A stretch of DNA of 34,111 nt from a virus. The stretch is taken from the IMG/VR virus record IMGVR_UViG_3300044950_000563, positions 1-34,111 of that record; one strand, 5' to 3'. A program made the translations under genes and the position numbers. The notes below the pieces were generated by a model. That model saw only the letters and a list, made by a program, of their open reading frames with translations. It did no database searches and had not been told where the DNA came from. Within the stretch, counting starts at the first letter, position 1, and each line of letters opens with the position of its first letter. Shown here piece after piece: positions 1 through 11,267 of this stretch.

Positions 1-74
1 GGAAACTCACTGAACAGCCACCGTATCCGCTCAAGCCCAGCCTCCATGACGTTTTTGGTTCCGTAGATTTTCAT
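1..74 (-). CDS. PAPS-reductase-like (IbrA/DndC-type) protein, N-terminal fragment
   Basis: The first 24 codons of a gene run off the left edge. The ATG at 74 overlaps the stop of the glycosyltransferase gene by 4 nt (ATGA). The visible residues (MKIYGTKNVMEAG, then LERIRWLFSEF) match the usual start of phage and bacterial phosphoadenosine-phosphosulfate-reductase-like proteins, in which a similar N(V)xEAxLERI...FxEF stretch immediately precedes the SGGKDS nucleotide-binding loop. That loop would lie just outside the window. Family members include IbrA, found beside the ParB-like IbrB, and the DndC-like ATP pyrophosphatases. The ParB-domain gene three genes upstream fits this pairing. The assignment rests on 24 residues and family knowledge, so it is tentative. 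Confidence 0.6.
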   Translation of the reverse strand, partial: MKIYGTKNVMEAGLERIRWLFSEF

Positions 75-685
75 AGGTATGCGTCCTCAGCGTTTGTGGG
101 CATCATGAGCGTTACCGTGGCCAATGCCCGGCGCACACGCGGCCTATTGGGGTGTATCTCTGACAGCCCCACCCGGTGGTCAACCAGTGACGGGGTGTGC
201 ATCCAATACTGCATCCCCCGGCTTGCCATGAAGTCCGCCATGAGCCAGTCATACCCAGTTGGGGCCTCAAAGCGTCTGGGCCATACCTTATAGTAAGCCA
301 CAAGATCGTACCCGAGGCCGGGGGGTACGTAGAAGCACTGGTTCATGCTGAATGTTGATCCTGCCCGGTGCCCGCTACCGTCACGAAGGTCTCGCGACAT
401 ACGGCTGAAGAACTGGATAAATTCGTCAGGGTGCTGCCTGACCGCGCTCGACACCAGCCCATCGAACCCCTCGCAGATCAGTATGTCGTCCTCAAGGTGC
501 ACGGCCCCCGTGTCACTCGACATACGTATGGCGGCCAAGAAGGTGCTCATAGCGTTTCTGTCTGTGTCCATGCAGAACTCAGCACGCTCTGGAAGAACCC
601 TGCGTAGGTACGGCCCATACTTCGCCAAACGTGCGTCAGTAGCACGGACTATCAAACGGGGTGTCGTGATGGCGTCCCCACTCAT
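71..685 (-). CDS. Glycosyltransferase-like protein
   Basis: A 204-aa protein. It resembles small phage and bacterial glycosyltransferases: an acidic metal-binding-like motif LEDD is at residues 64-67 (context AVHLEDDILI), and the C-terminal part has GYDWLMADF followed by PSLVDHRVG, a pattern common near the acceptor side of these enzymes. Aromatic and His/Met residues are frequent, as in GT-A folds. No signal peptide or membrane segment is visible. The start overlaps the methyltransferase stop by 4 nt, and the stop overlaps the next gene by 4 nt, so all four genes of this operon are probably translationally coupled. The substrate could be modified DNA bases, a nucleotide or a surface glycan. 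The neighbouring ParB, methyltransferase and PAPS-reductase-like genes favour DNA or nucleotide modification, but that is inference. Confidence 0.6.
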   Translation of the reverse strand: MSGDAITTPRLIVRATDARLAKYGPYLRRVLPERAEFCMDTDRNAMSTFLAAIRMSSDTGAVHLEDDILICEGFDGLVSSAVRQHPDEFIQFFSRMSRDLRDGSGHRAGSTFSMNQCFYVPPGLGYDLVAYYKVWPRRFEAPTGYDWLMADFMASRGMQYWMHTPSLVDHRVGLSEIHPNRPRVRRALATVTLMMPTNAEDAYL

Positions 686-1536
686 ACCACTCTCACGCGC
701 TTGCGGATAGCCGGGCGCTCACCCACGATCAGGGTGTACCCGTTGCCCGTGTCGATACGGTCACCCGACAGAAGGTCGGGGGGATGGTGCCAGTAGGTTT
801 GTTTGACCTTGGGGTTCGCGTCGTGCACCACGGGCACGTATCCCTCGTTCTGCAACATCACCAGATACGTCCCGCCCTGAGCGACGTATGACGGTATACG
901 CTTTACCTGCTCGGCGGGCAGGTAGTTTGCCACCCCGAACAGGCACAGGACGTAGTCAAACCGCTCAACGGTGTGGAACTCTTCCATGCCAGCCTTGAAG
1001 GTTGAGAACCCTTCCCCGAGTTTCCCGAACTTCTGTGTGATGCGGTCCAGCATGGCGTAGCTTGGGTCAAACCCTACATACCGCTCAGGCGCGATATAGT
1101 CCAAGGCCAAGCCCGTGCCACACCCGATATCAAGAAGACTGGCAACTTCGACGGGCACGTACTCGAAGACGCGGTTGTTCTCCTCTTGGAACTTGGCCTC
1201 GTCGTAGATGGCGTCGTATTGCTCGGCCACCTCGTCGTAGCTTGCCCGCTTGGATCGCGGGATGACCGCACGGTTCAGCACGATTGTCTCGCCCACGGGT
1301 GCGCCCATAGTCCAGTATCGCTGCCCGTTCAGGTTCAGATAGTGGAACGTGCGGGTACCCCAGTTGTCGGTATAGCCGTGCTCTCTGATATAGAACACCA
1401 CGTCGTCAAAACTGATAGCGTGCTCCCACTTGGCCCGTACCACGTAGTAATGAGGTATCTGCGGCATGGTCTTGGCGAACACAAACTGCTGACTTAGCAG
1501 GGCCTCTGCAATTGCGGTAAAGGTGTGCCCGGTCAT
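682..1536 (-). CDS. Class I SAM-dependent methyltransferase with N-terminal extension
   Basis: A 284-aa protein. The Rossmann-type SAM-binding motif I, LDIGCGTG, is at residues 135-142, followed by VGFDPS (motif II region), YVLCLFGVANYL (motif IV/post-I region) and a GGTYLVML strand. About 100 residues precede the catalytic domain and include FAKTMPQIPHYY, YIREHGY and QRYWTMGAPVGETIVLNRA. This conserved-looking extension is one I associate with phage methyltransferases of this type, and it may bind the substrate. The target (DNA base, nucleotide or protein) cannot be read from the sequence. No DNA-methylase DPPY/NPPY motif is visible, so a standard N6-adenine or N4-cytosine DNA methylase is unlikely. 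It overlaps the ParB-domain gene and the glycosyltransferase gene by 4 nt each. Confidence 0.8.
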   Translation of the reverse strand: MTGHTFTAIAEALLSQQFVFAKTMPQIPHYYVVRAKWEHAISFDDVVFYIREHGYTDNWGTRTFHYLNLNGQRYWTMGAPVGETIVLNRAVIPRSKRASYDEVAEQYDAIYDEAKFQEENNRVFEYVPVEVASLLDIGCGTGLALDYIAPERYVGFDPSYAMLDRITQKFGKLGEGFSTFKAGMEEFHTVERFDYVLCLFGVANYLPAEQVKRIPSYVAQGGTYLVMLQNEGYVPVVHDANPKVKQTYWHHPPDLLSGDRIDTGNGYTLIVGERPAIRKRVRVV

Positions 1537-2126
1537 TTCTTGAACTCGCCTTCTTGGATGCGGAAGTCACCACCACAGTGTGGGCAGGTGACGTCTAGCA
1601 GGTTCTGCTGCCCTGCTGTCGTGTACCTGTCCGCTAGCCCCGCATTGGCCCTGTCCACCTCAGCCTGCGTGAATTCGGAAGACGCTTTGCCCGGCGCAAG
1701 TGATGGGGTGTAAGCGTCCCCGATGCTGACCAGCTTCCTCAAGGCCTCGTCGTCCATACCCGTAAGGTGCAAGTCAAACCCTGCGTTGTTCAGGTAGTGC
1801 AGTTCTTGGCGAAGCACTGCATCATCCCACCCCGCGTCCTCGCTCAAGCGGTTATCGGCAATGACATACGCCCGGCGCTGAGCCTCGTTGAGGTGTGTGG
1901 CCAAGATGCATGGCACGCTGTCAAGACCCAGACGGGTGGCTGCCTGCACGCGGGCGTGCCCCGCGATAATGGTTCCGTCCTCTGCCACGATCACAGGGTT
2001 GATAAACCCAAACTCGGTGATGGCTGCCATAATCTTGGCAATCTGGGCTTCCGTGTGGGTTCGGCTGTTGCCTTTGAAGGCCTGTAGCTTACTCGGGTCC
2101 ATATAGGTGATGGCAAGAGGGGTCAT
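1533..2126 (-). CDS. ParB/Srx-domain protein (IbrB-like)
   Basis: A 197-aa protein. The N-terminal half is a ParB/sulfiredoxin-type domain: DPSKLQAFKGNSRTH, a helix ending in FGFINPVIV, then GTIIAGHARVQAATRLG, which carries the family GHxR signature near residues 55-66, and VPCILATHLN. The domain is followed by a helical region and a C-terminal CPHCGG knuckle that could bind zinc with additional ligands. ParB-type domains are CTP- or ATP-using modules, and small phage versions accompany PAPS-reductase-like proteins (IbrA/IbrB pairs). The start has a clear RBS, GGAGAAGAC. A box A repeat lies just upstream at 2150-2160. This gene heads the four-gene overlapping operon at the left edge. A chromosome-partition role is unlikely, as no ParA is visible. 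Confidence 0.8.
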   Translation of the reverse strand: MTPLAITYMDPSKLQAFKGNSRTHTEAQIAKIMAAITEFGFINPVIVAEDGTIIAGHARVQAATRLGLDSVPCILATHLNEAQRRAYVIADNRLSEDAGWDDAVLRQELHYLNNAGFDLHLTGMDDEALRKLVSIGDAYTPSLAPGKASSEFTQAEVDRANAGLADRYTTAGQQNLLDVTCPHCGGDFRIQEGEFKK

Positions 2127-5170: not shown

Positions 5171-5917
5171 TCAAGCCTCCCGCCGCCGACGCGTCTTTGA
5201 CTGGGTAGCCGTTGCCTCAGTGCGGGCGGCCTCAATCTCCGCGAGGTGGGGGGATAGGATGCGCAGAAACGCGGCGCTCTTTGTTGGCAAGCTGTGTGTT
5301 TGACGTAGCTGCTCAAGCACAATCTCAGCCGCATCGCGCTGAGCCAGTGTCATTGACAGCGTGAGGGTGACGGTGTCGCTCTGCCCAACGGCCACACCCT
5401 TGTCTGCCGACTTACTGACCGGTGACACCGGGGCCTTGTTTTTGTCAACCTTGATCGTATCCCCGGTCAGTGCTTGCAGCGCACGGTCGTCAAATCCAGT
5501 TAGCACGGCGAGGTCGGACGGCGGGAGTTTCAGCGCCTGCACTTCGACACGCAGCTTTGTCATGTCCCACTCAGCCAACTCTGCGGCCTTGTTCACTGAC
5601 AACCGGAACGCCTTGATTTGCTCGTCGGACATATCGTCAACAACAAGGCACGGGAGTTCGGCCATACCTAGGCGCTTGGCCGCCTTCAGGCGCAGGTGCC
5701 CGTCAACCACACGGTAGCGCCCGTCTGGCATGGTCCGAACCAGCACGGGTACGCGGAAGCCATGGGTACGGATGATTGACGCCATCTGCTCCACTGCGTG
5801 GTCGTTGACGCGCGGATTGTTCTCGTAGGGCACGAGGTCATTGATGCCCACGCTAATCAGGCTTTCCTCGTTGATCTGCACGGGACGTGTGGTGGCTTGC
5901 GGCTTGGTCTTTGTCAT
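5171..5917 (-). CDS. ParB-domain protein (second copy)
   Basis: 248 aa. The ParB/Srx-type domain spans roughly residues 20-115: VGINDLVPYENNPRVN, then MASIIRTHGFRVPVLVR, YRVVDGHLRLKAAKRLG with the GHxR signature, and LPCLVVDDMSDEQIKAFRL. Next come a helical AELAEWD...VLTGFDDRALQALTG segment and a Lys/Arg-rich C-terminus (TKTRRRREA end type) likely to contact nucleic acid. It differs from the shorter ParB protein at 1533-2126, so two diverged ParB-domain proteins coexist. It overlaps the XRE gene by 4 nt and is followed with a 3-nt gap by the 265-aa gene. A role in transcription control or DNA modification is more likely than partition. Confidence 0.8.
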   Translation of the reverse strand: MTKTKPQATTRPVQINEESLISVGINDLVPYENNPRVNDHAVEQMASIIRTHGFRVPVLVRTMPDGRYRVVDGHLRLKAAKRLGMAELPCLVVDDMSDEQIKAFRLSVNKAAELAEWDMTKLRVEVQALKLPPSDLAVLTGFDDRALQALTGDTIKVDKNKAPVSPVSKSADKGVAVGQSDTVTLTLSMTLAQRDAAEIVLEQLRQTHSLPTKSAAFLRILSPHLAEIEAARTEATATQSKTRRRREA

Positions 5918-6315
5918 GGTCTGTTCCTCTTTCTGATCTTGGCTCGTGGCCGTATGTCCATCAACGTGGCGAGCAGTATGAGGGCGAAGGGTAGTCGGTA
6001 CCCATAGGCCAGCGCTTGCACCGTCCGTATTCCGGGGTTTTTCTGCATACCGTTCTCGTAGAACGCCAACTGCGACCGCGATATCCCCGACCTTCCATAG
6101 ACTTGATATATGGTCATGCCGCTGCGCTTACGCGCCTCAACTAGCAGGGGGCCAAGGCCACGGGCGGCGGGATTGACGGGGCGTAGGTCGCCTATCCCCT
6201 TCACGAGTTGGGCCACTTCCGGGCGAATGCCGTGCATGTCTGCCAATGACAGAAGCAGGTGCTTCGCCTCAAGTTCCTCACCGATCACATAGGGGGGCAC
6301 GGGCTTATCCGTCAT
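5914..6315 (-). CDS. XRE-family helix-turn-helix regulator with N-terminal extension
   Basis: 133 aa. The HTH lies in the C-terminal half (about residues 54-110): LGPLLVEARKRSGMTIYQVY, then GRSGISRSQLAFYENGMQKNPGIRTVQALAYGYRLP, a good XRE match with the recognition helix around ISRSQLAFYENG. It ends with a hydrophobic stretch (PFALILLATLM) and a basic tail (RPRAKIRKRNRP). The N-terminal 50 residues are unlike typical small XRE repressors. It is in the operon served by the box B promoter at 8017-8045 and directly precedes the ParB-domain gene with a 4-nt overlap. It is a candidate reader of box A or box B. Confidence 0.8.
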   Translation of the reverse strand: MTDKPVPPYVIGEELEAKHLLLSLADMHGIRPEVAQLVKGIGDLRPVNPAARGLGPLLVEARKRSGMTIYQVYGRSGISRSQLAFYENGMQKNPGIRTVQALAYGYRLPFALILLATLMDIRPRAKIRKRNRP

Positions 6316-8496: not shown

Positions 8497-10422
8497 CTAC
8501 CTTCCCGGTGGTCTGATGCGATTGCCTTTACCGTCTGTAAAGTAAATCTGGGTTCGGTACAAACGGGAACTGCTAGCAGAGTAGGCCGCACCGGCCAAGG
8601 CGTCTGCTATGTCCTTGCTGCCCTTGGGAGGGTGGTCAACCTTGCCGCTCTTCTCGTCACGGTCCAACTGTACCAATTCAAGCGTGAGCACATCGTTGTC
8701 TGGGTAGTCAAGACGGTCCTGATATAGAGCACGTTTGACCATTTGGTATGCCTCGTCCGACCGATCCATTGACACAACTTCGGACCTTATACCTATCTTG
8801 CGCAAGGCCTGCACACTCTCGGCTGAGTTGAAGCCGTCGTAGCTGACCATGTATATGGGGACGCCGTGTTGCGCCTGTAGCTGTACTACCCAGTTACGAA
8901 CCTCGGCAATGTCCAATTCCTTGGCCTGCGACGGCTGGATGCTGACGGCCAGTTCAACCACATAGTAGGGAACGCGTTCAAACACGCCCGCCTCAAGTTC
9001 GACCTCGACCATCTTGTCAACGCGAAGCATGACAATACCGCACCGGTCCTTTGACTTCGACAAGTCGATATGTACGAAGCGCGGGGTGGTTATGTCTGCG
9101 TCCAACAGGTCTGGATTGATCACCGGCATACCATGCTCGGCTAAGTCCACGTTAGCCCGGCGCACCGGGTTCGCGTTGCCCCCCTCGCGCCATCTGGTAA
9201 CGGCCTCAATTATCTTGTGGCGCTGCGTTATGAATGGTGACAGGTTCACCGTGCTGATGCCACATACGTCACGCAATGCGTCCTCTGGTCTGTGTGTGAA
9301 CTCATAGCGGTAGTTCTCCGGTACGCTCTCCACCACCCCGTTCTCGGGGTAGTGGATACCGGGCAACTCGTCGTCCTTCAGTATCCGGGTCGCATATGTC
9401 GCGGTACCCACGAGCAGGCGGAAGCGCGTCTTGCTGAAGCGGCCCTCGGGCTGCACCTCGTATTGCTTGTGTCGGAAAATCATCACACCGTACTCGCCTG
9501 ACGCACGTACTTCGGCTATGCGCCGGTCAAGAAAATCGTCGTTGTATCTGGTTGACGAGGATAGGATGACCATGCCGGGCACGGGCAGTCTGGCGCTAAA
9601 ACGCGATTTTCTACGTAGCTTCACCGCCCGATAGAATAACTCAGCTTGGTCGTAAGTGCCCTGCCTGCCATCCCCTTTTTGGGCGCGCGAGGACTTGGTC
9701 ACCACTGACATAAAGTTTGCTTCGTCCACATGGCTGGATATGATGGCTTTACCTATGATACCCTGCGTTGTGGCGATGACCGGCTCAACTGCCACCCCGT
9801 TGTCAAACTCAATCACGCTGGTCTTGTCCTTGTTCCACCGTGTGTAGCGCCGGAAGAAAGGCATAGTCCCTATCATCGCGTAGAACGGTTTGAACAGCAC
9901 GTCCATGGTGGTGCCAATGCCGCTTGACGTCATACTGAACACGATAGGGGTGTGTGCGGCTAGGCCGTAGGTACGCTGAGGGTGGGCTAGACACTGCACA
10001 AGGTAAAGCTGGTAGGCCGTGGTTATGTGGGCCTTCGCGGTCTTCCCCGTGCCGGTAGCCCCGCTGTCTATATACTCCGCGACCTGATCGTCAATACCTG
10101 AGAACGGGTCACGGTTCACGGCTATGACGTCGCGCTTGATCTGTGCCCATACGTCCATGTCCACACCGCCAAGAAAGTCTTTGCTTTCAATGAACTCCTC
10201 AATGGACACGGGCACGCGCTTCATGGCCGCGAGGTATTGGAACATGCGGTCGTCGTTGTTCTCGAACAAGCTGGTGCATACCGTTGACCAAACCTCGTGC
10301 ACACGTGTCTTCCCGTGCGTGGACATGATCCTAAGCTGTTTCTCCGCGATGCGCTTCATTGCGTCAAGGCGCGTTAATCGTTCCTGAGCAAGCCTGCCTA
10401 TGATATCCAGATCAACTCCCAT
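8497..10422 (-). CDS. terL: Terminase large subunit
   Basis: A 641-aa protein, the usual size for TerL. The ATPase has Walker A GATGTGKT (residues 121-128) and a Walker-B-like ending in HVDEAN (residues 231-236), followed by LSSSTRYND as the coupling motif. The C-terminal RNase-H-like nuclease carries HIDLSKSKDRCG (Asp453), VSYDGFNS (Asp529) and GSKDIADALA (Asp604/607), the acidic triad that cuts the packaged concatemer. It acts at the capsid portal with the small subunit encoded just upstream; the stop and start overlap as TGATG. The ATG at 10422 is preferred to the GTG at 10425. No deviation from a functional enzyme is seen. Confidence 0.93.
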   Translation of the reverse strand: MGVDLDIIGRLAQERLTRLDAMKRIAEKQLRIMSTHGKTRVHEVWSTVCTSLFENNDDRMFQYLAAMKRVPVSIEEFIESKDFLGGVDMDVWAQIKRDVIAVNRDPFSGIDDQVAEYIDSGATGTGKTAKAHITTAYQLYLVQCLAHPQRTYGLAAHTPIVFSMTSSGIGTTMDVLFKPFYAMIGTMPFFRRYTRWNKDKTSVIEFDNGVAVEPVIATTQGIIGKAIISSHVDEANFMSVVTKSSRAQKGDGRQGTYDQAELFYRAVKLRRKSRFSARLPVPGMVILSSSTRYNDDFLDRRIAEVRASGEYGVMIFRHKQYEVQPEGRFSKTRFRLLVGTATYATRILKDDELPGIHYPENGVVESVPENYRYEFTHRPEDALRDVCGISTVNLSPFITQRHKIIEAVTRWREGGNANPVRRANVDLAEHGMPVINPDLLDADITTPRFVHIDLSKSKDRCGIVMLRVDKMVEVELEAGVFERVPYYVVELAVSIQPSQAKELDIAEVRNWVVQLQAQHGVPIYMVSYDGFNSAESVQALRKIGIRSEVVSMDRSDEAYQMVKRALYQDRLDYPDNDVLTLELVQLDRDEKSGKVDHPPKGSKDIADALAGAAYSASSSRLYRTQIYFTDGKGNRIRPPGR

Positions 10423-11267
10423 CACAACACCTGCGTCAGGTCTTCTATGCTGAGCCTGCTAGAGGTTAGCTGCCCGGTTTGTGCCATGTAGTCGATTTCT
10501 TCCTTGTGTAGTTCTGGGTCCATGATTGCTGCCATAGCCTGACGTAGTATGCCCATATCGTCGTCAACAGTCTCGTCGTCTACTTTAGGGTTCAGGCGCA
10601 CGCTATCATAGAAGCCCGCACGGGTAAGGAAGTCATGCTTGTGGCGCTCTGCCACCATGGCAAGGGCAAGGTAGCGCGCCCGGTCAACGTGTTGCTGGTT
10701 GACTGTCAAGCCGTCTGCATTGCGCAACGCCGTTCCGCGTATCTCGTCATAGAAGGCCATGGTCTTCCCGGCTAACAGCCCCATGTCGATACTGCCCGCC
10801 TCTTTGCTCAAGCGTCCGAACAGTTCCTTGCGCAGGGTGTATGCCTCTTGCGGGGTAAGGTCCAGAGCAGACGCCACTTGAGCCATGTTCGCTTGGCGTA
10901 GAAGCAGGCGGTGCATAAGGCGAAGCTGGTGCTCTTTGCGGTAGGCGTTCTCCGCGTCTATGCGATAGCTTGACGTGTACCCGTCAACGGCTATGGACGC
11001 GAACGCACCGGGTGCGGCGGCGTGGTCTATGGCCGGGTTACCATGGGGTGGGGGTGCGTGGTCGGTGTAAGCGAAGTCAATGGTGACACGGGTACCTGTA
11101 TACCGTTCTATCAGGTCGTCAACCGTGTGTGCTGGCACTGCCTCGGTAAACTGGGAAACGGCCTCGGTCAGGACCTCGTCACGGATTGGCGCAACCTTGC
11201 GTGGGGTGGTTATCGCGATGCCACCGGTAGCGCGTTGACGCTTTCTAACTTTTACGTCCTCGGCCAT
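10422..11267 (-). CDS. terS: Probable terminase small subunit
   Basis: 281 aa. A helix-turn-helix-like stretch lies near the middle (RLMHRLLLRQANMAQVASAL, then DLTPQEAYTLRKELFGRL), consistent with DNA recognition by TerS. Helical oligomerisation-type segments follow (YLALAMVAERHKHDFLTRAGFYD) and then an acidic stretch (DDETVDDDMG) before a C-terminal tail. The basic N-terminus (KVRKRQRATGG) is also typical. Identity is supported mainly by its position directly before terL with a TGATG overlap. The RBS GAGGGCGGAT lies before the ATG, just after a terminator hairpin that separates it from the upstream unit. A box A repeat (11005-11015) lies within the gene. Confidence 0.7.
   Translation of the reverse strand: MAEDVKVRKRQRATGGIAITTPRKVAPIRDEVLTEAVSQFTEAVPAHTVDDLIERYTGTRVTIDFAYTDHAPPPHGNPAIDHAAAPGAFASIAVDGYTSSYRIDAENAYRKEHQLRLMHRLLLRQANMAQVASALDLTPQEAYTLRKELFGRLSKEAGSIDMGLLAGKTMAFYDEIRGTALRNADGLTVNQQHVDRARYLALAMVAERHKHDFLTRAGFYDSVRLNPKVDDETVDDDMGILRQAMAAIMDPELHKEEIDYMAQTGQLTSSRLSIEDLTQVL
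11005..11015. promoter_or_regulatory. Box A inverted repeat, intragenic
   Basis: GCACCGGGTGC, full 13-bp form at 11004-11016, inside the small terminase gene, encoding APGA. Confidence 0.65.

Follow-up and report, generated by a model that had tools for sequence, protein, structure and literature searches.

Phage DNA hypermodification and IbrA/IbrB gene pairs are both already known kinds of system. The IbrA/IbrB pair, made of a DUF3440 PAPS-reductase-like protein and a ParB protein, joins the same two families as neighbours in phage and prophage genomes, and its annotation is that of a co-activator acting on prophage genes. The cassette described here differs from it by placing a small domain, called here the N-domain, and swappable enzymes between the first ParB gene and the IbrA gene. 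The CmoA-CmoX-CmoY 5-carboxymethylcytosine system resembles the cassette in being a phage DNA hypermodification, in the ATP-dependent adenylation of a handle and in its frequent ParBc neighbour, ParBc genes being common beside the proven hypermodification genes CmoX/CmoY (PMC12783734). It uses, however, a C5-methyltransferase with Cx-SAM and an asparagine-synthetase-type ligase, neither of which was recognised among the recurrent neighbours of the cassette.

The Dnd and Ssp systems (DndC, SspD) share with the cassette a PP-loop/PAPS-reductase-like enzyme, which in their case acts on DNA, and Dnd also has a ParB-superfamily partner. The cassette, in contrast, lacks conserved cysteines, DndA/D/E and SspB/C were not seen among its recurrent neighbours, and sugar, methyl and acyl enzymes are present instead. 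T-even 5hmC glucosylation and thymidine hypermodification (5hmdU kinase, aGPT-PPlase, JBP-like) also lead to glycosyl or other groups on phage DNA; the ORFs scanned in the incomplete contig studied here gave no match to a dCMP/dUMP hydroxymethylase, an aGPT-PPlase or a 5hmdU kinase. Mom, a GNAT DNA modification enzyme, is comparable at the level of the GNATs that occupy the tailoring slot of 14 relatives, and we know of no need of Mom for IbrA. The literature searched, to which most subscription papers do not belong, yielded no description of a cassette that unites IbrA/ParB with the N-domain and with exchangeable tailoring enzymes.

Gene anatomy at the left end of the window

The window is the whole 34,111-base virus record IMGVR_UViG_3300044950_000563 (58.9% G+C). 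Its left end encodes, on the (-) strand, a ParB protein of 197 aa (1533-2126), a methyltransferase of 284 aa (682-1536), a glycosyltransferase of 204 aa (71-685) and the first 24 aa of an IbrA-type protein cut by the contig end (1-74). The first-pass annotation had read these as four genes with successive 4-nt overlaps, which the ORF coordinates confirm for each adjoining pair (1533-1536, 682-685 and 71-74, 4 nt each). Megablast of the whole window against 50,697 phage records gave no match, and an exact search for contigs overlapping its left edge found none. The features are the following:

1..74, (-) strand: 5' end (24 codons) of an IbrA-type PAPS_reduct/DUF3440 gene, MKIYGTKNVMEAGLERIRWLFSEF, recognised by the IbrA profile; the contig end cuts the rest
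71..685, (-) strand: GT-A-fold glycosyltransferase-like protein, 204 aa (phrog_854, AlphaFold2, Foldseek/VIA)
682..1251, (-) strand: class I SAM methyltransferase domain, residues about 96-284 of the fusion protein (Methyltransf_12, AlphaFold2, VIA)
1252..1536, (-) strand: N-domain, residues 1-95 of the fusion protein, FAKTMPQIPHYY...YWTMGAPVGETIVLNRA (N-domain profile, co-occurrence with IbrA)
1533..2126, (-) strand: ParB-N domain protein with a C-terminal CPHCGGDF zinc-ribbon-like tail (PF02195, phrog_620, PADLOC)
5171..5917, (-) strand: second ParB-N protein, 3 kb upstream of the cassette (PF02195, 2.2e-11)

The first ParB protein carries a ParB-N domain (ParB_N PF02195, 8e-7, 29.5 bits for a cut-off of 26.3) and is homologous to phage ParB proteins of phrog_620 (7.9e-49). 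Its best PADLOC match is the ParB part of the DNA methyltransferase model MTase_II (2.8e-38), and its CPHCGGDF-type tail is found also in the viral loci L003 and L005 and in ParB3 of Microbacterium phage Hendrix. The second ParB protein is a possible further member of the cassette; most relatives have two or three such genes (85 of 108 IbrA loci). Its gene shares 4 nt with the neighbouring gene of an HTH regulator-like protein (5914-6315). Further along the window, the 642-aa product of positions 8497-10425 is a doubtful candidate for the viral terminase: its one match, a weak one, is to a terminase-large family (phrog_9, 5e-6), and Pfam gives no hit.

The methyltransferase had been singled out for a special N-terminal extension and for lacking the standard motifs of DNA amino-methylases, and both statements hold. 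Its SAM domain (Methyltransf_12, 2.5e-10, residues 135-222) is preceded by the N-domain, with no Pfam match over residues 1-95, and alignment A4 displays the class I motif LDIGCGTG and no DPPY/NPPY-type motif IV. An AlphaFold2 model of the fusion protein, computed with 27 related sequences as input, has a pLDDT of 93.9. VIA matches its residues 97-277 to NodS (Z 18.0), TylM1 (16.8) and CmoM (15.9), within rows made up mostly of small-molecule N/O/C-methyltransferases. The fold matches of the full model are taken up by the methyltransferase domain. A PADLOC match to 'mad2', which spans the generic SAM domain only, was set aside.

The N-domain is about 95 aa long, with the conserved pattern FAKTMP...PHxY...YWTMGAP...INRA, and has no credible match by sequence in Pfam, PHROG or PDB. 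Its profile retrieved from PDB sequences two interferon-gamma chains only (E 0.007-0.01), taken as spurious. The same profile matches the window at 1.3e-33, the window sequence being one of its seeds.

The neighbouring gene, called glycosyltransferase-like on first reading, gives a weak sequence match (phrog_854, 6.8e-5), and its AlphaFold2 model (pLDDT 87.0) supports that assignment with Foldseek/VIA matches to GT-A enzymes, the best VIA match being 5ggi (Z 14.6, 3.2 A over 179 residues). A conserved EDD at residues 65-67, with an invariant D67, provides the acidic metal/nucleotide motif of GT-A. The nearest folds are protein/polysaccharide GT-A enzymes, and the fold matches listed include no T4-type DNA glucosyltransferase. 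Hendrix gp154 shares 28% identity with the protein (E 2e-16).

Recurrence and modular swapping of the cassette

A recurrent cassette of ParB, N-domain, tailoring enzymes, IbrA, ParB and terminase is present in other, unrelated virus contigs. In L003 and L005, which were found through their ParB, this gene is accompanied by the N-domain with a methyltransferase, an IbrA containing SGGKDS and another ParB. Scans that used the N-domain as query, either by itself or together with its methyltransferase, yielded 69 non-redundant virus loci, with IbrA nearby in 60 and ParB in 58; where both flanks reach at least 2.5 kb, IbrA is found in 41/46. None of the 18 bacterial N-domain copies has either gene. 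A separate scan for the glycosyltransferase family used a query alignment built from cassette members, with hits not selected for IbrA, and gave 66 non-redundant loci (IbrA in 57, ParB in 57, N-domain in 39). This closer alignment found viral relatives, whereas the window glycosyltransferase sequence used alone found none. For comparison, IbrA is matched in 215 of 50,697 phage records, a yardstick rather than an exact test because the collections differ.

Among 157 gaps between adjoining core genes the 4-nt overlap is the commonest (47). The terminase large subunit lies downstream in the four relatives tested, with the small subunit in two and the portal in one. IbrA and ParB occur without tailoring enzymes in some phages (FCL-2, FPSV-D35, CHPC1230). 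The N-domain exists also outside the cassette (L150, L155, L153, L162-L165 and L001:5968-7758), fused to DUF6994, an endonuclease/exonuclease/phosphatase domain, an AAA_23/SMC-type ATPase or an unassigned stretch that by eye looks DUF488-like.

Tailoring genes stand directly upstream of IbrA, at least one being found in 104 of the 108 IbrA loci; the set seen in the window (N-domain, methyltransferase and glycosyltransferase) recurs in 5 of them. The slot can hold a small-molecule-type class I methyltransferase, fused to the N-domain or beside it, and the N-domain also occurs alone. Relatives of DPPW-type N6_N4 DNA methylases are present in 35 loci (best Pfam 8e-8), with P-P-W in 31-32 of the 35. 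Another 29 loci encode HxD...H proteins, whose residues H85, D87 and H131 are found in 29/29 and suggest an Fe(II)/2OG or cupin oxygenase; Pfam returns for them Cupin_2 only (0.044), and tblastn no match in cultured phage records. The slot also accommodates GNATs, other glycosyltransferases and an NDP-sugar epimerase (L170 and L171, 1.3e-44). In a single case (L085:5925-6458) a pyruvoyl-dependent arginine decarboxylase (PF01862, 1.4e-48), which could be a source of agmatine, is found between a DPPW methylase relative and IbrA. The product of L186:7148-8011, adjoining IbrA, belongs to a small family (5 sequences, mostly 280-340 aa) with no Pfam or PHROG match.

Presence and absence were mapped on an IbrA tree of 105 rows, a quick tree without confidence interval, on which changes may be gains or losses. 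They number at least 23 for the glycosyltransferase, 24 for DPPW, 15 for the methyltransferase and 17 for the oxygenase-like gene, so the parts of the cassette have been exchanged often.

Two cultured phages carry a version of the cassette. The right end of Hendrix encodes two glycosyltransferases (gp154, gp153), an N-domain with methyltransferase (gp152, N-domain profile match 3e-16), a GNAT and IbrA, and its left end three ParB proteins followed by TerL. Since the Hendrix genome is circularly permuted (PMC7302621), the cassette genes of both ends are contiguous. Microbacterium phage Leaf has a Hendrix-like version in which several genes are glycosyltransferases by annotation or by match. The divergent N-domains of both phages emerge by profile only, tblastn giving no N-domain match in cultured phage records. 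We found no published DNA chemistry for Hendrix or Leaf.

IbrA family and its predicted chemistry

The left-edge gene had been described as PAPS-reductase-like, and its sequence now places it in the IbrA family: the 24-residue fragment scores 25.2 bits over positions 1-24 of an IbrA profile derived from sequences of other viruses, and it is identical at 19/24 positions to the IbrA start of L052, a member of phrog_2302 (3.8e-82). Relatives combine PAPS_reduct PF01507 with DUF3440 PF11922, as in L003 (4.9e-16 and 3.8e-6) and Leaf gp159 (1.2e-12 and 2.5e-9). Because the window copy is cut to 24 residues, the chemistry of IbrA is deduced from these relatives. The PP-loop S[GA]GKDS is found in 165/169 of them, the corresponding stretch of the window gene lying beyond the contig, and GxRxxE[ST]xxR in 162/169. 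The PAPS-reductase catalytic motif ECGxH is present in none of the 169, and the window copy ends before that position. No cysteine is invariant across 117 IbrA sequences, the best column reaching 79/117.

The closest solved relatives by sequence are CysD (1e-6) and the PAPS-reductase-like domain of FAD synthase (2.6e-5), both adenylyl transferases, with sulfate and FMN as substrates. PADLOC matches IbrA to DndC (5e-11) and SspD (3e-4). The lack of ECGxH, the cysteine columns and the kinship to CysD and FAD synthase make adenylyl transfer or activation the likelier predicted activity over sulfur reduction; both PAPS reduction and backbone phosphorothioation were set aside on the cysteine evidence. 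The first-pass proposal of DNA hypermodification is supported: its gene set is a recurrent cassette, often with a DPPW-type DNA methylase in the tailoring slot, and lies just ahead of the packaging genes in relatives. Its sulfur option has become less likely.

Probable substrate and role of the cassette

We lean towards a phage-encoded, post-replicative DNA hypermodification system of the IbrA type, probably acting on the phage's own DNA. The DPPW methylases, the relatedness of ParB to DNA methylases, the location close to the packaging genes and the ParBc precedent beside CmoX/CmoY point to DNA as the substrate. We infer the following course, from the base and its chemistry to the order of the steps and the final protection. 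The ParB protein(s) would bind phage DNA and locate the target. IbrA, as a PP-loop enzyme of CysD/FAD-synthase type, would carry out ATP-driven adenylation of a group on the DNA or on a partner substrate, an activation readying the target for attachment of a small group. The N-domain may serve as a shared adaptor that brings the tailoring enzyme to the IbrA/ParB target. In the window virus the fused methyltransferase would add a methyl group and the GT-A glycosyltransferase a sugar, and, ahead of packaging, the modified genome would be concealed from the nucleases of the host.

An acceptor other than DNA is conceivable, given that the methyltransferase resembles small-molecule enzymes and the glycosyltransferase protein/polysaccharide GT-A enzymes. 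The phages that have IbrA and ParB but no tailoring enzymes also count against our reading. The main rival, which we hold to be unlikely, is that RNA or free/signal nucleotides are adenylated by IbrA and decorated by the methyltransferase, glycosyltransferase or GNAT, with ParB as an NTPase, for counter-defence or tRNA modification. It fits the adenylation of small substrates (sulfate, FMN) by the best structural relatives of IbrA, the proximity of the methyltransferase to the tRNA-modifying CmoM and to small-molecule enzymes, and the nucleotide degradation suggested for ParB-superfamily proteins (PMC10853773). It does not account for a DNA methylase family (DPPW) in the tailoring slot, for a ParB whose best match is the ParB portion of a DNA methyltransferase model or for the place of the cassette before terminase. 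Decoration of capsid or tail proteins or of the host surface by the glycosyltransferase and methyltransferase, IbrA and ParB being mere neighbours, appears quite improbable: the glycosyltransferase family accompanies IbrA in 57/66 loci and is found in alternation with genes for DNA methylases and oxygenase-like proteins, and no part in a pathway of this kind is known for ParB or IbrA, even though the GT-A fold is nearest to protein/polysaccharide enzymes and the sugar-type methyltransferases TylM1 and CalS10 are among the nearest methyltransferase folds.

Two sulfur-related explanations have very little probability in our view. Dnd/Ssp-like phosphorothioation of the DNA backbone with extra decoration draws on the DndC and SspD profile matches of IbrA, against which stand the missing invariant cysteine in 117 sequences and the absence of DndA, DndD and DndE from the recurrent neighbours. 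The other, for which we see equally scant likelihood, takes IbrA as a helper of sulfur metabolism (a cysH auxiliary metabolic gene) or as the IbrA/IbrB co-activator of gene expression, the methyltransferase and glycosyltransferase being unrelated to it. Current annotations of IbrA-type phage genes do read PAPS reductase or IbrA co-activator, and published surveys assign phage cysH to sulfur cycling (PMC9301287) and phrog_2302, to which the L052 IbrA belongs, to host metabolism (PMC11318856); yet ECGxH is absent from 169/169 relatives, and the tailoring enzymes of 104/108 loci would be left unexplained.

A bolder and tentative version of the DNA hypermodification reading, rather unlikely at present, is that IbrA-type phage 'PAPS reductases' are DNA-base adenylyltransferases that link a base of duplex DNA to an amine or another nucleophile, after which N-domain-docked enzymes would methylate, glycosylate, acylate or hydroxylate it. 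TilS, which attaches lysine in tRNA (lysidine), provides the analogy. Such a handle would be unlike 5-hydroxymethyl, 7-deaza or carboxymethyl bases; at the one locus L085, the arginine decarboxylase encoded beside IbrA could supply agmatine. If so, many reported phage cysH 'sulfur' genes would be DNA-modification genes.

The cassette predicts a widespread and chemically diverse viral route of DNA modification centred on an enzyme at present classed as a sulfur gene, one of the 'core' auxiliary metabolic genes, together with an unnamed domain, and Hendrix and Leaf make this prediction directly testable. If it holds, the ecological interpretation of viral cysH would have to be corrected, and the known enzymes that decorate DNA would gain a new set.
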